64,000 nt of DNA, from the NCBI RefSeq assembly GCF_024970185.1, contig NZ_CP103965.1, positions 5,289,001 to 5,353,000 of the forward strand, read 5' to 3'. A program made the translations under genes and the position numbers. Below the pieces are notes generated by a model that searched no databases, had not been told where the DNA came from, and was given only the letters and a program-made list of their open reading frames with translations. The DNA comes from Pseudomonas sp. N3-W (lineage in GTDB: Bacteria; Pseudomonadota; Gammaproteobacteria; Pseudomonadales; Pseudomonadaceae). Of the stretch, positions 35,525 through 45,518 are shown in pieces (the stretch's first letter is position 1; each line of letters begins with the position of its first letter).

Positions 35525-36883
35525 TCAACCCACCTCCAGAATCCCGCCCTCCTCTTCCTCCGGCACTTTCACGAATACGCTGTACTTCGCGCCTTCCATG
35601 GATTCGAAGGCAATCAACTTGTCCACCAGCGGCCCGTTCAGCACCTTGCCGGCGTTGAGCAGCAGCATGCCGTTGTCGGCGTTGAGGTTGCGCGCCAGGA
35701 TCATGCCTGGCGCCAGTTCCCGGGTGGTCAGCACCTTGACCGACGGATCGGCCAGCGTCACATCGCTGAGGAACGCCGCGCAGACCTGAATGAAGTCTTC
35801 GATCAGGTCCGGGTCATAGAGCCGGCCGGCGTACTGGCGGATATACACCAGCGCCTCATCGCTGTTCATCTGCCGCTCCAGGATCAACCCGCGCTGCAAC
35901 TCGATGAAATCCACCGCCAGTTTCAACAGCCGTGAACCGAACGGGATCGCTTCGCCCTTGAGCCGGTCGGGGAACCCGCTGCCGTCCCAGCGCTCCTGAT
36001 GGTGCAGGATCAGACGAGCGGCGTCTTTCATCGGGTCGAGGGTCATCAACAGTGACTCGCTCTGCTTCGGGTACGCACGATAGCGGTCGCGGTCAATATG
36101 ATGCAGCAGGTCCGAAGGGGTGATCATCATGCTGTCGGTCCAGCTCAGCTTGCCGATGTTGTAGAGCGCGGCGGCCATGGTCAGGTCACGGCTGCTGCCC
36201 TCGTCCAGCCCGTGGCGTTTGCAGTACACCCGCACCAGTTCGATGATCTGCCGGTTGGTCTGCTTGGCCGGCGGCAGACGCAGGTTGGCCAGCAACGAAA
36301 ACACCTCGGTGCCGGTGACGTAGCTGTGCTTGAGCTCCTCGTAGGCCAGGTCCAGCATGTCGGCGGTCTGTTGTAGCTCGGCCGTGCGCGACACCACGTG
36401 TTTTTCCAGCGTGGCATTGAGGGTTTTCAACTGCTCGTTCTGCAGGCGGGTCAACTTCAACAGACGCAGGCGCTCGCGCTCGGAGTGCTGGAGCTCCAGA
36501 GCCTGGCGCAAGGTCAGCAGCAGTTCTTCGTCATTCCAGGGTTTGCTGATGTAGCGATGAATCTGGCCTTCGTTGATGGCCTTGATGATCGTCGGCAGGT
36601 CGGCATAACCGGTCAGCAAGATACGCGTGGTGGCGGGATGGCGCTGATGGATCTGCGCCAGCAGCGTGGCACCGTCCATGCCGGGCATGCGCGCGTCGCT
36701 CATGACCAGGTCGACGGGATGCTGCCCCATGATTTCCAGCGCCTGGGCACCGCTGCTAGCCAGCAACACATCATAAGGCTGGCCGCGCAGCAGGCGGCGC
36801 AGGCTACTGAGAATTGATTCCTCATCATCGACCAGCAGCACCTTGGGCTTGTCGATTACGGACGAGGGTATTTGCTCTTCCAT
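35525..36883 (-). CDS. Response regulator with degenerate HD-GYP (YN/GFP) domain
   Basis: 452-residue protein. The receiver (13-125) has D63 in VMSDARMPGMDG and is followed by a coiled coil (about 135-180) and an HD-GYP-like domain. Catalytic HD is replaced by Y241-N242 (ALYNIGKLSW), while HHQERWDGSGFP (294-305) keeps the second part with GFP instead of GYP. It should therefore not cleave c-di-GMP in the usual way. It resembles the Pseudomonas aeruginosa group of noncanonical YN-GYP regulators (PA2572-like), thought to act by binding partners. It diverges from a c-di-GMP signalling operon, suggesting functional contact. Confidence 0.85.
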   Translation of the reverse strand: MEEQIPSSVIDKPKVLLVDDEESILSSLRRLLRGQPYDVLLASSGAQALEIMGQHPVDLVMSDARMPGMDGATLLAQIHQRHPATTRILLTGYADLPTIIKAINEGQIHRYISKPWNDEELLLTLRQALELQHSERERLRLLKLTRLQNEQLKTLNATLEKHVVSRTAELQQTADMLDLAYEELKHSYVTGTEVFSLLANLRLPPAKQTNRQIIELVRVYCKRHGLDEGSSRDLTMAAALYNIGKLSWTDSMMITPSDLLHHIDRDRYRAYPKQSESLLMTLDPMKDAARLILHHQERWDGSGFPDRLKGEAIPFGSRLLKLAVDFIELQRGLILERQMNSDEALVYIRQYAGRLYDPDLIEDFIQVCAAFLSDVTLADPSVKVLTTRELAPGMILARNLNADNGMLLLNAGKVLNGPLVDKLIAFESMEGAKYSVFVKVPEEEEGGILEVG

Positions 36884-37105
36884 GGCGTTACCTCAAGTAA
36901 AACGGGCAAATTCGTCGCGACAGGACTCGGCCAGACATCCGCTATTACCGGAACATGGCCTACAGGCTAGATGATTTTTGCCCCGACCCGGAAAATGATT
37001 ACGGCCAACAGGCAGGGTGAAGTCCTGCCGAACGACTATGCTCAGTTCACTCGGATCCATAATCTGTACCCGTTCGGCCAGGTGATCAGGGAAAAGGATG
37101 CCCCT

Positions 37106-37153
37106 ATGAGCACACGCAAACCCACTGCTGCCTGTTCCGGTGCATGTCGATGA
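37106..37153 (+). CDS. Short upstream ORF, possible leader peptide
   Basis: [15 protein letters not shown], 15 codons. ATG 37106 follows AAGGA at a good distance (about 37094-37098), whereas the large gene after it has a weak ribosome site. Its TGA (37151-37153) overlaps ATG 37150, the second start of the downstream protein, in an ATGA arrangement. Translation of the downstream gene could therefore be coupled to this short frame. No further evidence that the peptide is functional. Confidence 0.35.
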   Translation: MSTRKPTAACSGACR

Positions 37154-39425
37154 ACACGCTGTTGGCACGGGCCAACCGGCGGATCCTCATCGTCGACGAT
37201 ACCGCCTCGATTCATCAGGATTTCATCAAGATCCTCAGCCCGTCATCGACCGAAGACGAACGCCTGGACAGCGCCGAGATGGCCCTGTTCGGCACCACGG
37301 CGGTGGCTGCGCTGCAAAGTTTCGTGCTGGAGTCGGCCTTTCAGGGCCGCGAGGCGCTGGACAAGGTCGAGACCGCCCTGGCCAATGACTTGCCCTATGC
37401 CATGGCGTTTATCGACATGCGCATGCCTCCGGGCTGGGACGGCCTGGAAACCATCGAACGGCTGTGGCAGGTCGATCCCAAGCTGCAAGTGGCGCTGTGC
37501 ACCGCCTATTCCGATTACTCCTGGGAAGATATCGACGAGCGCCTGGAACTGGGCGACCGTCTGCTGATCCTGAAAAAACCCTTCGATGCCATCGAAATCC
37601 GCCAGATGGCCAGTGCATTGACCGCCAAATGGCAGATGACCGAAGACGCCGCGCTGAAGATGTCGTTGCTTGAGCAGGCTGTCGAAGAGCGCACCCGGGA
37701 GTTGTCCGACGCCAACATCATCGTGCAGAACAGCCCGACCATCCTCTACCGGCTGCGCGGCGAGCCCTCGTTTCCGCTGATGTACATCTCGCACAACATC
37801 ACCAAGTACGGCCATGTCGCGGCGGACCTGGTGGCCTCGGCCAACTGGGCCAAGGAGTTGGTTCATCCCGACGACCACGCGGTACTCGATTCGGCCATGG
37901 CCCGGGTCCTGGACCGCCATGCCGTCGGCGCCTCTATCGAGTTTCGCATGCGCACCGGCGACGGCGGCTGGCGCTGGGTCGAGAACCGCTATATCCCGGT
38001 GCGCGACAGCGAAGGCCGGTTGCTGGAAGTCGAGGGCATCGTCATCGACATCACCGAGCGCAAACTGGCCGAAGAAAAAATCGCCCTGCTCGCCCGCACC
38101 GACGGGCTGACCGGGCTTGCCAACCGCGCCACCCTGATCGACCGGCTGCACCAGGCCTTCGCCGCTGCCCGGCGGGGCGCCGCTGCGTTCGCCATTTTTT
38201 ACCTGGACCTGGATCACTTCAAACGCATCAACGACACCCTCGGCCACCCGGTGGGCGATCTGCTGTTGCAGGAGGTGGCGCGGCGGATCAAGGCCTGCGT
38301 GCGGGAAAACGATGTGGTCGCCCGGCTGGGCGGTGACGAGTTCGCCATTCTGCAACTGGACGTCAGCGACCCGACCCAGTCAGCCGCCATGGCCGCCAAG
38401 GTCCGCGATGCGCTGGTGCTGCCTTACTCCCTGGACGGCAACGATGTGCGAGCCTCGGTCAGCATCGGTATCAGCAGTTGCACCCCGGACACCCTCAGCG
38501 CCGAAAGCCTGCTGACCCAGGCCGACATGGCGTTGTATCGCTCCAAGGAGCAGGGCCGCAATCAGTACCACTTCCACTCCGAGGAGATCAATCAGGAAGT
38601 GGTGGAGCGCATGGCCATCGCCAGCGACTTGAAAGCCGCCATCGAAAACGGCGAACTCGAACTGCACTACTGGCCGGAAGTGGATCTGAGCAGCGGCAAG
38701 ATTCTCGGCATGGAGGCGCAGGTCAGCTGGAACCATCCCGAACGCGGTTTGCTGGATGCCCCCGCGTTTCTGCCGGCGGCGGAAAAGACCGGCACCATCG
38801 TTGTCCTGGGGCATTGGGTGCTGGATCAGGCCTGCCGGCAGATGCGCCAGTGGCGAGACGAGGGCATGGCGCCGCCGGTGATTGCGATCAAGCTGTCGCT
38901 GGCCCAGCTCAAGAGCGGGCCTGAACTGATCTACGACGTGTTGCGCACCACTGCGCGCTGGGAACTTTGCCCCTGGGACCTGCGTTTTGACGTCACGGAG
39001 GCGACCCTGGCGCAGACCAAGTGGACCCACAACGATGTGTTGCCACGCTTGCGCGAGTTGGGGGTGAAGATCGCCATTGACGACTTCGGCACCGAATATT
39101 CGTCGTTCGACTACCTCAAGACCTACCAGGTCAACCACCTCAAACTCGCCCAATCGTTTCTCGACACCGCCGCCCGGGACCCGGCCAGCGCAACGACGCT
39201 CAAGGCCATCATCAATTTCGCCCGCGACGTGGGGATCGGCATCATCGCCGAAGGCATTGAAACCCAGGAGCAACGCAGTTCGCTGATGGCCACCGGTTCG
39301 CCGATGAACGCCCAGGGGTATTTCTTCAGCAAGGCCGTCAGCAGCCAGCAAGCCGCCGAGCTGCTCAAGGCCGGCAGCATTTTGCCCGGACCGGGCAGCC
39401 CGCGGCAGCTCACGGAGGATGAGGA

Positions 39426-39429
<4 letters not shown>
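37144..39429 (+). CDS. REC-PAS-GGDEF-EAL protein, probable diguanylate cyclase
   Basis: 761-residue c-di-GMP enzyme. An unusual long receiver (12-165) carries D91 in [12 protein letters not shown], then PAS/PAC (about 193-307, ending VIDITERK) and GGDEF (310-475). The GGDEF half has every active-site element: [21 protein letters not shown] (396-400) and an inhibitory RxxD site (R387-D390). The EAL half is degenerate: EAQ 524-526, HYWP for HYQP, IKLS for the Asn ligand, DDFGTE for DDFGTG and KLAQ for KID. So it should make c-di-GMP but not degrade it. The start may be ATG 37144 or 37150. Overlaps the next gene (ATGA). Confidence 0.88.
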
Positions 39430-41300
<1,871 letters not shown>

Positions 41301-41344
41301 ATACCGGGCAACACCATTGCACCCAACCGCCAAGGAAGCCGCCG

Positions 41345-42304
41345 ATGCTGACTTACCGTGCCGCCCTGCTCTGGGTATGTACCCTGGCAACCTGGCTGAC
41401 AGCCGTTGGCGCGCCGCTGGATGAACCTCTCAAACCCCTGCCCCCGGTGCCACAGCTCGACCCTCTGCGGGTCGAACTCGGTCACCGGCTGTTCAATGAA
41501 CCGCGCCTGTCGGTCAACGCCAACCTGTCCTGCGCCAGTTGCCACCACCTGCAAAGCGGTGGCGCCGATGACAAGCCGTTTTCCATCGGTGCCAACGGCC
41601 AGCCGGTGACGGTCAACACCCCCAGCGTGTTCAACGTCAGCCTGAACTTCCGGCAGTTCTGGGATGGCCGGGCCGACACGCTCAACGCCCAGGTCCACGA
41701 ATCCATGCAGAGCCCCAGCGAAATGGGCAGCAACTGGGAACATGTGGTGCAAACCCTGACCGCCGACCCGACCTGGAAAACCGGGTTCGCCAACGCCTAC
41801 CCGGACGGCGTGACCATGGACAATGTGCAAAATGCCCTGGCGACCTACGAGCGCACCCTGCTCAGCAGCAACTCGCGCTTCGATCAGTACCTCAAAGGCA
41901 ATACCGACATTCTGACCCTCGATGAAAAATACGGTTACCAGCGCTTCAAGGACTACGGCTGCATTGCCTGCCATCAAGGGGTGAACATCGGCGGCAACAT
42001 GTTCCAGAAGTTCGGGGTCATGGACGACTACTTCAAGGCCCGGGGCAACCCCGTCGACACCGACCTGGGTCGCTACCTGGTGACCAAGGACGAAGACGAC
42101 CGCAACGTGTTCAGGGTTCCGAGCCTGCGCAACGTCGCGGTGATCGCACCGTACTTCCATGACGCTTCGGCCAAGACGCTCGAAGACGCAGTGGATGTGA
42201 TGTTCAAGTTCCAGCTCGGCCGTATGCCCTCCGCCGATGACAAGGTGCTGATCATCAAATTCCTCAAGACCCTGACCGGCGAATGGGAGGGCAAACCCTT
42301 ATGA
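41345..42304 (+). CDS. Dihaem cytochrome c peroxidase-like protein
   Basis: 319-residue exported dihaem protein of the bacterial cytochrome c peroxidase/MauG family. Signal peptide MLTYRAALLWVCTLATWLTAVGA, haem motifs CASCH (63-67) and CIACH (206-210), and FRQFWDGRADTL, SPSEMG and PYFHDASAKTLEDAV, all typical of the family. In the periplasm it would reduce hydrogen peroxide or carry out a related oxidation. ATG 41345 follows AAGGAAG. Its stop overlaps the start of the histidine kinase (ATGA), so enzyme and sensor are made together, which is unusual and suggests it senses or produces the signal. Confidence 0.88.
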   Translation: MLTYRAALLWVCTLATWLTAVGAPLDEPLKPLPPVPQLDPLRVELGHRLFNEPRLSVNANLSCASCHHLQSGGADDKPFSIGANGQPVTVNTPSVFNVSLNFRQFWDGRADTLNAQVHESMQSPSEMGSNWEHVVQTLTADPTWKTGFANAYPDGVTMDNVQNALATYERTLLSSNSRFDQYLKGNTDILTLDEKYGYQRFKDYGCIACHQGVNIGGNMFQKFGVMDDYFKARGNPVDTDLGRYLVTKDEDDRNVFRVPSLRNVAVIAPYFHDASAKTLEDAVDVMFKFQLGRMPSADDKVLIIKFLKTLTGEWEGKPL

Positions 42305-44112
42305 ACCGTTCCCCCCGTCGCAACATGGCACTGCTCGGCGTCGTCGCCTTGCTCCTGGCCTCCACACTGCTGTTTCTGTACCTCAAGTCCAGCTCCGGCC
42401 AGACCTCGACCTACACCGAATCCCGGGACCTGATTGGCCGGATGAAACAGCTCAACGCGCAGTGGGACACCGAGATTCTCAAGGCGCGGATTGCCATCAC
42501 TCACAACTACGATCCCCTGGTCTTGCCCCTGATCGAAATGACAAGACTGTGGAGTCGCTTCGACAGCATGGAGTCGAGCCACGGCCGCGACGACTCTCTG
42601 ATCTGGAGCAGCAGCCACGACGCCTATCTGGCCGCCATCGCAGAAAAGACCCGGCTGGTGGAGCAATTCAAATCGCACAACGCGGTGTTGCGCAATTCAC
42701 TGGCGTTCCTGCCCACGGCCGAAGACGACATTCAACAGCCGCTGGCCGAACTGGTGGACGGCGACAAACTGCAACTGCAGAACATCGCCACCGACACCTA
42801 TGACTTGCTGCTGAGCAGCATGGAGTTCGCCCAGGTCACGTCGGACGACAAGGCCGCCGAGATTCTGGTGGGCCTGAACAAACTGGCGGTCAACAAAACG
42901 CGCCTGCCGGAGCAGTTCCACGAGCCGATCGACACCCTGAGCAACCACATTGCGCTGATCGTGCGCGAGCAACCGAAAGTCAATCAGTTGCTGGACAGCA
43001 TCGAAGCCATACCGCTGTCCGAACGCCTGGACGACATCACCGGCCTGTTGAACAAGGATCAGCAAGAGGTCGATGCGGTTGACCAGCGCTATCACTTCTA
43101 CATGTTGTTGTTTTCCACGTTGCTGGTGCTGCTGCTGGTGTACCTGGCCATTCGCCTGATGCGCAGCTTCGCCGAGGTCCATCAGGTCAACAAAGCCCTG
43201 CACACCGTCAACGAAGAACTCGAACAGCGCGTCGAAGAACGCACCCGCGAACTCAAGGACACCCAGAGCGAACTGCTCGACACCGCGCGCCAGGCCGGCA
43301 TGGCCGAGATCGCCACCAATGTGCTGCACAACGTTGGCAACGTGCTCAACAGCGTGAACATTTCCGCTGACCTGGTCACCCGCAAACTGCGCGCCAGCAA
43401 AGCCCTGGGCCTGGGCAAAGCCATGCAGTTGATCAACGACCACTCGCACGACCTGGGCCGCTTTCTGACCGAAGACGAGAAAGGCAAGTTGCTGCCCGGC
43501 TACCTCAATCAACTGGTGGAGGCCATTGCCCTCGAACAGCAAGGCATGAGCGACGAGCTGGCACAACTGACCAAAAGCGTCGACCACATCAAGGACATCG
43601 TCGCCACCCAGCAATCCTATGCCGGCGCCAACAGCCTGATGGAACCGGTGCGCATCAGCGAGCTGCTGGAGGATGCCCTGCGCATGAATTCCGGCGCCCT
43701 GACCCGGCACCACGTCACGGTGGTCAAGGAGTACGCCGACGTGCCCCAGGTCATGGGCGACAAACACCGGTTGCTGCTGATCCTGATCAACCTGATCAGC
43801 AACGCCAAATACGCGATGTCGAACCTGAGCAACCGTCCGCGCCAGATCACCCTGGGGGTGAAAATCATCGACGACACGCTGCTGCAAGTCAGCGTCAAGG
43901 ACGACGGCGAGGGCATTCCCGAGGAGAACATGACGCGAATTTTTGCCCACGGTTTCACCACTCGCAAGGACGGCCACGGCTTCGGCCTGCACAGCTGCGC
44001 CCTGGCCGCCATCGAGATGAACGGCCACCTCACCGCCCACAGTGACGGGCCCGGAAAAGGCGCTCTTTTCACGTTGCAAATCCCCCTTAAAACCGTCGCA
44101 GGTGACGCATGA
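42301..44112 (+). CDS. Membrane histidine kinase with DAHL-type sensor
   Basis: 603-residue kinase. TM1 at about 10-28 and TM2 at about 266-286 enclose an all-helical periplasmic domain of about 235 residues of the DAHL kind (WDTEILKARIAITHNYDPLV, ALAFLPTAEDDI-like region near 134-144). After a coiled coil ([21 protein letters not shown]) the phospho-acceptor is H343 in ATNVLHNVGNVLNSVN. The ATPase part has NLISNAKYAM, DDGEGI and GFGLHS. The Asn-Val-Leu-His-Asn-Val-Gly motif marks a distinctive kinase subfamily. Overlaps both neighbours by 4 nt. Confidence 0.85.
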   Translation: MNRSPRRNMALLGVVALLLASTLLFLYLKSSSGQTSTYTESRDLIGRMKQLNAQWDTEILKARIAITHNYDPLVLPLIEMTRLWSRFDSMESSHGRDDSLIWSSSHDAYLAAIAEKTRLVEQFKSHNAVLRNSLAFLPTAEDDIQQPLAELVDGDKLQLQNIATDTYDLLLSSMEFAQVTSDDKAAEILVGLNKLAVNKTRLPEQFHEPIDTLSNHIALIVREQPKVNQLLDSIEAIPLSERLDDITGLLNKDQQEVDAVDQRYHFYMLLFSTLLVLLLVYLAIRLMRSFAEVHQVNKALHTVNEELEQRVEERTRELKDTQSELLDTARQAGMAEIATNVLHNVGNVLNSVNISADLVTRKLRASKALGLGKAMQLINDHSHDLGRFLTEDEKGKLLPGYLNQLVEAIALEQQGMSDELAQLTKSVDHIKDIVATQQSYAGANSLMEPVRISELLEDALRMNSGALTRHHVTVVKEYADVPQVMGDKHRLLLILINLISNAKYAMSNLSNRPRQITLGVKIIDDTLLQVSVKDDGEGIPEENMTRIFAHGFTTRKDGHGFGLHSCALAAIEMNGHLTAHSDGPGKGALFTLQIPLKTVAGDA

Positions 44113-45518
44113 GCAGCCCTTCCAACCGACGGATTCTGTTGATCGACGACACACCGTCGATCCATGACGACTTCCGCAAGATCCTCAACCCGCCCACTGA
44201 GCAGCAAGCGGAACTGGACGAAATGGAGGCCGCCCTGTTCGGTGCCGAAGCGAAATCGGCCAGTGCCCTGTTCGAACTGGACTCGGCCTATGGCGGCCAG
44301 GAAGGCCTGGGCAAACTGACCCAGGCGTTGCAGGAAAATCGCCCCTACGCCATGGCCTTCGTCGACATGCGCATGCCGGATGGCTGGGACGGCGCGCAAA
44401 CCATCGAACATTTGTGGCAGGCGGACCAGCGCCTGCAGGTGGTGGTGTGCACCGCCTATTCCGACTATTCATGGGACGAACTGCTGGATCGTTTGCAGGC
44501 CCATGACCGGCTACTGATCCTGAAAAAACCGTTCGACAACATTGAAGTCCAGCAAATGGCCAACACCCTGCTGACCAAATGGGAAATGACAGAACGGGCC
44601 AGCGTCCAGATGGATCATCTGGGGCAGATGGTCGAACGCCGGACCCGGCAGTTCAAGGAAGCCAGCGTCGAGTTGCAACGGGAAGTCGACGAACGCAAAC
44701 AGCTCGAATCGCAACTGGTGCAATCGGAAAAACTCGCCTCACTGGGGCAACTGGCCGCCGGTGTCGCCCACGAAATCAACAACCCCATCGGCTTCATTTC
44801 CTCCAACCTCGGCACACTGGACGGCTACTTCAAGCAACTGCAGGAAATGCTCGATGCCTATCGAGAGGCCGAAGAGGCCATTGCGTCGGGCGAGGTCATT
44901 GAACGTCTGGGCCAATTACGCGATCGGGTCGAACTGGACTTCCTGCGCGAGGACATTCCGCTGCTGATCAAGGAGTCCAAGGACGGCATTGGCCGGGTCG
45001 GGCAGATCGTCAAGGATCTGAAAGACTTCTCCCGGGTGGATTCCAGCGAGCATTGGCAGTGGGCCAATCTGCAACAGGGCATCGAATCGACCCTGAACAT
45101 TGTCGCCAGCGAGCTCAAGTACAAGGCCGACGTGGTGAAGCAGTATCAGGAGTTGCCCGAAATCGAGTGCCTGGCGTCGCAAATCAATCAGGTGATCATG
45201 AACCTGATCGTCAACGCATCCCAGGCGATAGGACCGGAACGCGGCATCATCACCTTGCGCACAGGCGTTGAGGGCGAAAACGTGTGGATTGAAGTGCAGG
45301 ACACCGGCTCCGGTATCGAGCCTCACAGCCTGCAGAAAATCTTCGACCCCTTCTTCACCACCAAGCCGGTGGGCCAAGGGACGGGGCTGGGATTGTCGCT
45401 GTCGTACGGCATCGTGAAGAAACACCGAGGAGAGATTTCGGTACGCAGCGAAGTGGGCGTGGGCAGCACATTCCGGGTTGAACTGCCGGTGCGCCAGACC
45501 GCCCCGACAGCAGGCTGA
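44109..45518 (+). CDS. Receiver-histidine kinase hybrid, soluble
   Basis: 469-residue cytoplasmic protein with an N-terminal receiver (7-160, D86 in FVDMRMPDGWDG) and then a coiled coil. A histidine kinase follows with H221 in GVAHEINNPIGFISSNLG and an ATPase part (NLIVNASQAI, DTGSGIE, GTGLGLSLSYG). The receiver is of the same elongated type as in the two GGDEF-EAL proteins ([42 protein letters not shown]). It has no membrane segment and no output domain, so it probably relays phosphate from the DAHL kinase to other receivers. Last gene of the operon. Confidence 0.88.
   Translation: MSSPSNRRILLIDDTPSIHDDFRKILNPPTEQQAELDEMEAALFGAEAKSASALFELDSAYGGQEGLGKLTQALQENRPYAMAFVDMRMPDGWDGAQTIEHLWQADQRLQVVVCTAYSDYSWDELLDRLQAHDRLLILKKPFDNIEVQQMANTLLTKWEMTERASVQMDHLGQMVERRTRQFKEASVELQREVDERKQLESQLVQSEKLASLGQLAAGVAHEINNPIGFISSNLGTLDGYFKQLQEMLDAYREAEEAIASGEVIERLGQLRDRVELDFLREDIPLLIKESKDGIGRVGQIVKDLKDFSRVDSSEHWQWANLQQGIESTLNIVASELKYKADVVKQYQELPEIECLASQINQVIMNLIVNASQAIGPERGIITLRTGVEGENVWIEVQDTGSGIEPHSLQKIFDPFFTTKPVGQGTGLGLSLSYGIVKKHRGEISVRSEVGVGSTFRVELPVRQTAPTAG

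Follow-up and report, generated by a model that had tools for sequence, protein, structure and literature searches.

We analysed a 64,000-nucleotide (nt) stretch of DNA from Pseudomonas sp. N3-W (hereafter the window; positions 5,289,001-5,353,000 of a single 6.67-Mb contig, a Pseudomonas chromosome), and describe in it a six-gene locus, A to F, that may couple an exported di-haem cytochrome c peroxidase (CCP) to a phosphorelay acting on the messenger cyclic di-GMP (c-di-GMP) (Table 1). The open reading frame (ORF) list and Pfam matches agree with the coordinates and domains that a first-pass annotation of the sequence had given for these genes, including a divergent regulator, A, in which YN replaces HD and GFP replaces GYP. 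The overlapping run that it described also stands: B/C and E/F each overlap by 4 nt, and the peroxidase and kinase genes D and E do share an ATGA, because the likely start of E is ATG 42301 (603 amino acids (aa), judged by the length of close homologues; the ORF is open from 42283). C and D are spaced by 44 nt when counted from the likely start of D at ATG 41345 (319 aa, as in most of the close homologues listed); its ORF is open from 41297, and from the earlier ATG at that position D would overlap C by 4 nt.

Table 1 Features of the A-F locus (window coordinates).
Feature	Position	Strand	Basis
A: canonical receiver and degenerate HD-GYP (YN..GFP), 452 aa	35525..36883	-	Pfam Response_reg and HD_5; NCBIfam NF053512; motif columns
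A/B intergenic region, putative divergent promoter region	36884..37143	.	conserved elements; function putative
B: long receiver-PAS-GGDEF (intact)-EAL (degenerate, EAQVSW), 761 aa	37144..39429	+	domains, motif columns
C: long receiver-GGDEF (degenerate, GSDEF)-EAL (intact), 624 aa	39426..41300	+	domains, motif columns
D: di-haem c peroxidase, predicted to be exported, without distal His of the P haem	41345..42304	+	CCP_MauG; solved bacterial CCP relatives; motifs
E: membrane histidine kinase with periplasmic DAHL sensor and HNVGN-type phospho-acceptor region	42301..44112	+	DAHL and HATPase_c matches
DAHL periplasmic domain of E, about residues 36-276 of the longer ORF; predicted TorS-like all-helical fold	42388..43110	+	structure model; PDB comparison
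F: long receiver-HisKA-HATPase_c, 469 aa; putative kinase of A	44109..45518	+	domains; neighbour comparison

B, C and F had been noted to begin with the same long receiver, and comparison bears this out. The receiver of F is 59% and 58% identical to those of B and C, and in a search of the whole 6.67-Mb genome it returns three matches at E-value <= 0.001, all inside the six-gene run. The receiver of A gives no match to this type, which rules out A as a further carrier. B and C are GGDEF-EAL tandem proteins whose damaged halves are complementary: in the rows compared (relatives and the window), the GGDEF of B is intact in 32/32 and its EAL no longer shows the E-L-R signature in 27/32, while C has a changed GGDEF in 45/45 (GSDEF or GADEF in 43) and an intact EAL signature in 45/45. 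Because of this complementarity, the earlier labels of cyclase-like for B and phosphodiesterase-like for C hold; from the changed motifs we infer that the corresponding halves have lost activity.

D matches Pfam CCP_MauG at 186 bits (cut-off 25.6), which identifies it as a bacterial CCP, and its N-terminal sequence predicts export. The first CxxCH motif is present in 53/53 rows and the second in 52/53. The DAHL-linked peroxidases share with solved bacterial di-haem CCPs (PDB 3o5c, 1iqc, 1eb7 and others) the two CxxCH haems, the active-site Gln, mostly the Glu, and the Met on the E haem, but differ from them at the distal place of the P haem, where D has no His and so departs from the classical class. 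A distal His was found in 0/60 DAHL-linked peroxidases versus 26/29 stand-alone ones, in a comparison drawn from 30 returned loci, Pseudomonas paralogues and DAHL loci that is not a random draw and counts identical cores once. In classical bacterial CCPs the distal His of the P haem has a role in reductive activation. Because this residue is missing, the P haem of D should stay open to peroxide at all times. We also weighed D as a MauG- or MbnH-type modifying enzyme and rejected it, as it scores 129 bits against 444 for MauG and 178 against 363 for MbnH, and keeps the Met on its E haem.

The partner gene, E, matches the DAHL family (PF19443) at 176 bits (cut-off 38) and HATPase_c at 65 bits, and is thus a DAHL kinase. 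A structure model of its DAHL region (E residues 30-285; predicted local distance difference test (pLDDT) score 93.9) predicts a two-bundle all-helical fold of the TorS type, at 9% identity to TorS over the alignment. Outside Pseudomonas, a di-haem peroxidase gene lies directly upstream of the DAHL gene at 56 of 62 judgeable places, with 12 DAHL matches left out of the reading (11 under the family cut-off and one, G694, above it). Co-variation of the peroxidases is stronger with the DAHL domain than with the kinase core, as judged on the 48 of 68 pairs whose core was of sufficient length. Within the genus, we sampled 149 genomes, with counts that take no account of species relatedness: E occurs in 61 of them, and D (at least 59% identity) in exactly the same 61. 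Nine further Pseudomonas genomes hold only D paralogues of 41-46% identity; at 11 loci of such paralogues we found no relative of E or F above 150 bits, and a GGDEF-EAL protein nearby at two (L199, L205). The link between a periplasmic haem protein and the kinase that the first-pass annotation had drawn is therefore upheld as shared presence in the same 61/149 genomes and as adjacency across the phylum.

These data bear on whether D serves as a co-sensor or as an enzyme in its own right. An enzymatic D would remove periplasmic peroxide or oxidise a substrate, the DAHL domain would sense a small ligand or product, and the genes would be linked by a response to the same stress. We consider this unlikely, since the peroxidase tracks the DAHL domain and not the kinase core, since D and DAHL share 61/61 genomes even where the kinase half has been swapped (L033-L035), and since the missing distal His marks the DAHL-linked class (60/60 versus 3/29). 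As a separate observation, five DAHL proteins above the family cut-off (L265, L266, L267, L270 and L274) have no peroxidase match within up to 4 kb on each side, and are candidates for DAHL receptors with other partners.

We read 52 of the 60 other operons in the sample, with eight other-species operons outside the count. The commonest arrangement was the complete A-BCDEF (27 operons), followed by A-CDEF (15), A-DEF (3) and A with D and a DAHL-F fusion (3); in the remaining four no A lay in the piece read, some of these pieces being at contig ends. D adjoins E, or the DAHL-F fusion, in 52/52 other Pseudomonas genomes read, and by sequence comparison both this adjacency and the recurrence of the complete set exceed chance. 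All six genes are present at 61/80 named loci, one of them (L129) in the laboratory strain P. fluorescens FW300-N2E3. Among named species, the kinase gene is closest to those of P. frederiksbergensis, P. mandelii and P. lini, names that would place the host in the P. fluorescens complex. Long receivers occur in 58 of the 61 E-bearing genomes and two others, A in 58 of the 61 and 17 others, and DAHL once in the window's own genome. In 368 other genomes of the class, searched at E-value <= 1e-60, no match extended into the DAHL half of E, all of them covering kinase halves only, and because of this the complete set looks confined to Pseudomonas. The conserved synteny that the first-pass annotation had proposed to look for across proteobacteria thus holds within the genus, well beyond a few strains, and the complete set was not seen outside it in those 368 genomes.

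That annotation also had the kinase distributing phosphate to the receivers. A dedicated relay is supported, as the long receivers of the run are the only ones in the genome, and as HNVGN-core kinases outside the genus directly precede a long-receiver gene at 9/14 loci, the two being separate ORFs in 9/9. Further HNVGN kinases were found in 20/61 operon genomes versus 0 of the other 88 (E-value <= 1e-60, relatedness ignored); 16 of these 20 genomes include, besides the operon, an orphan DAHL-HNVGN kinase 53-58% identical to E. Extra HNVGN kinase genes also lie in or beside the operon at two loci, L036 (around 7579) and L037 (around 16099). Their position suggests added inputs to the same receivers, and several sensors may converge on the long receivers.

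Where the earlier account of the relay needs changing is at A, which is most likely, from neighbour and motif comparison, the target of F, and because of this the relay would have two tiers. Motif columns were compared among A rows drawn from 76 A places other than the window's own, nine of which fell outside (eight in the genomes of the operons outside the count and one at a contig end). In 68/68 rows the HD motif is replaced by YN (in one row by HN) and the GYP motif by GFP, so A lacks the motifs of an HD-GYP phosphodiesterase. Where A has a kinase neighbour, that kinase is F-type (core at least 48% identical), with four different input parts: a long receiver of the window type, DAHL (L033-L035), a membrane helix (L189) or PAS (L180, L190-L195, L198). 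The acidic pair and phospho-acceptor of A are intact in 58/58 rows with an F-type neighbour. In contrast, in 10/10 rows without an F-type kinase in the stretch read, the acceptor Asp has become Ala and the acidic pair is broken, with the YN/GFP output motifs kept.

All ten phosphosite-less copies of A have window-type flanks (LysR, NUDIX, permease or synthase) and lack B-F there; eight of them are in genomes that have neither E nor a long receiver, and the other two (L196, L197) in genomes with the operon and its own A elsewhere. The A tree requires two separate losses of the phosphosite, as does a tree of the HD-GYP part alone, with a single clade rejected (approximately unbiased (AU) test, p 0.0235). 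At L179, D and E are gone and F is kept; the long receiver of this F is short of one acidic-pair letter and still has its acceptor Asp. The DAHL-F fusion nests within the operon clade of the A tree, and so appears to be an abridged form of this signalling path. A second A-type arrangement (L180, L190-L195, L198) consists of a PAS-F kinase and a REC-HD-GYP protein, to which some loci add a stand-alone receiver and a GGDEF-EAL protein of very large size.

On a simpler account, E would be the only kinase that matters, F would be mainly a phosphate sink or phosphatase, and A would be driven by other kinases. In its favour, among the 4/52 operons with no A in the piece, at least one (L037) is from a genome without an A match at E-value <= 1e-80; we nonetheless find this account improbable, given that an F-type kinase adjoins A wherever the phosphosite is intact (58/58) and is absent from the stretch read wherever it is lost (10/10). 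Least probable is a network that senses nitric oxide (NO) and not peroxide: A does belong to the NCBIfam family of the NO response regulator NosR (NF053512, 590 bits, cut-off 400) and di-haem proteins might bind NO, but a family label is no test of function, the six proteins have no HNOB or FIST domain, and the absence of any FIST (NosP) match in the genome disfavours a NosP-type input.

The reading that we prefer, with a probability of about 0.64, is that a periplasmic sensing unit, made up of D and the DAHL half of E, drives a two-tier relay, through which periplasmic peroxide or redox state would set c-di-GMP. D would dock onto the TorS-like DAHL domain and encounter periplasmic peroxide or electrons from respiration; the DAHL helices would relay its state, redox or peroxide-bound, to E and so set the kinase activity. 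Domain and neighbour comparisons point to a relay from E to B, C and F, and from F to A. E would pass phosphate to the long receivers of B (the cyclase), C (the phosphodiesterase) and F, and set the balance between synthesis by B and breakdown by C. The state of F's receiver would switch F's own kinase, with the receiver of A as its target, and A, as a degenerate HD-GYP protein, would probably be a c-di-GMP effector or a modulator of C or B. We infer the D-E contact, the stimulus, the direction of every phosphotransfer and the output. With somewhat less assurance, we also lean towards a wider proposal: that a dedicated clade of former CCPs has turned into periplasmic peroxide/redox co-sensors, with the DAHL domains found throughout the Pseudomonadota as their receptors. 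The Pseudomonas operon would then be an elaborate version of this pair, with a two-tier relay and a split cyclase/phosphodiesterase output.

Several points weigh against the co-sensor relay. The whole mechanism is built on sequence comparison and a predicted fold; for that fold, Foldseek returned no hit at E-value <= 0.001, its first hit was the small-molecule receptor McpS, and helical bundles score high by nature. Adjacency and co-variation are no proof that D and E touch, and altered GGDEF or EAL letters are no proof of lost activity. DAHL can exist without an adjacent peroxidase, because 6/62 judgeable DAHL genes outside Pseudomonas have no CCP nearby and the orphan DAHL kinases of the 16 Pseudomonas genomes likewise have none in the eight surroundings read (L025-L032). 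The distal His is also missing from three of the 29 stand-alone CCPs, the term F-type was judged against two kinase queries, E and F, and the complete set was absent from the 368 genomes of the class outside Pseudomonas.

The intergenic region between A and B holds conserved elements. AGGCTAGATGATTT and GACTATGCTCA are conserved at window positions 36950-36975 and about 37035, and single 10-mers of AGGCTAGATGATTT are exact in up to 20/27 regions (window included). A conserved CTATGCT element in the region resembles an RpoS-type -10 element. A sigma-70 scan gave no promoter-like site where chance would give 2.2, terminator-like sites were at chance level (9 against 9.5 expected), and ANR and sigma-54 patterns with up to two mismatches had no match in 48 intergenic regions. 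Elsewhere in the window, spurious ORFs at about 35.4, 47.0 and 49.0 kb have in common the translated string ASKLAPT, probably a trace of intergenic Pseudomonas repeats that we presume to be repetitive extragenic palindromic (REP)-like.

How peroxide or the state of electron transport is sensed in the periplasm of Gram-negative bacteria is much less clear than OxyR-type sensing in the cytoplasm. If our reading is true, the widespread peroxidase-kinase pair would be a ready-made sensor class, would suggest a function for the DAHL domain, and would tie periplasmic redox state to c-di-GMP, which controls biofilm and motile lifestyles; the relay also predicts clearly which kinase phosphorylates which receiver. 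No account of a CCP-kinase pair or of the operon turned up in open-licence PubMed Central, as judged by titles and the starts of abstracts, and a review from 2022 on the stimuli of c-di-GMP signalling has no word starting with "peroxid" in its main text. The two-component and c-di-GMP parts are familiar; the peroxidase as partner protein of a kinase, across the phylum, is the new element.

HnoD, of the HnoX-HnoK-HnoB-HnoD network, is a degenerate HD-GYP protein. In this network of Shewanella and Vibrio, a kinase acted on by a haem protein controls a c-di-GMP phosphodiesterase linked to a receiver, and HnoD inhibits that enzyme (PMC8846402). The overall plan is alike (haem protein, kinase, receiver-linked c-di-GMP enzyme and a further protein), but the Hno sensor is an H-NOX protein for NO, whereas the locus described here combines an exported di-haem peroxidase with a membrane kinase of the DAHL type and has another kinase, F, before the HD-GYP protein. 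We found no H-NOX (HNOB) domain among the six proteins, the rest of the genome not having been searched, and do not assign the locus to the Hno network. The same source describes NosP-NahK-NarR, where sensor and kinase are separate proteins and the receiver output carries GGDEF and EAL domains (PMC8846402), a plan likewise similar to ours; NosP, however, is a FIST protein, and with no FIST match in its genome the locus falls outside that system too. E scores 36 bits against the NahK model, whose cut-off is 1500.

TorT is a periplasmic binding protein. In TorT-TorS (solved complexes 3o1h-3o1j), an all-helical periplasmic sensor reads a separate periplasmic protein, the same plan as we propose for DAHL and D, but with TorT in place of a di-haem peroxidase and with DAHL and TorS 9% identical. 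E also matches the VirA-like model PRK13837, below its cut-off (137 versus 647 bits). We know of no haem or peroxidase in the ChvE-VirA system, and of no relay there to long receivers. There, a membrane kinase is made more sensitive by a periplasmic protein that works through the kinase's periplasmic region (PMC9149312); ChvE binds sugars, whereas D is a di-haem peroxidase. By analogy with these two systems, D is most likely a redox-active counterpart of TorT or ChvE.
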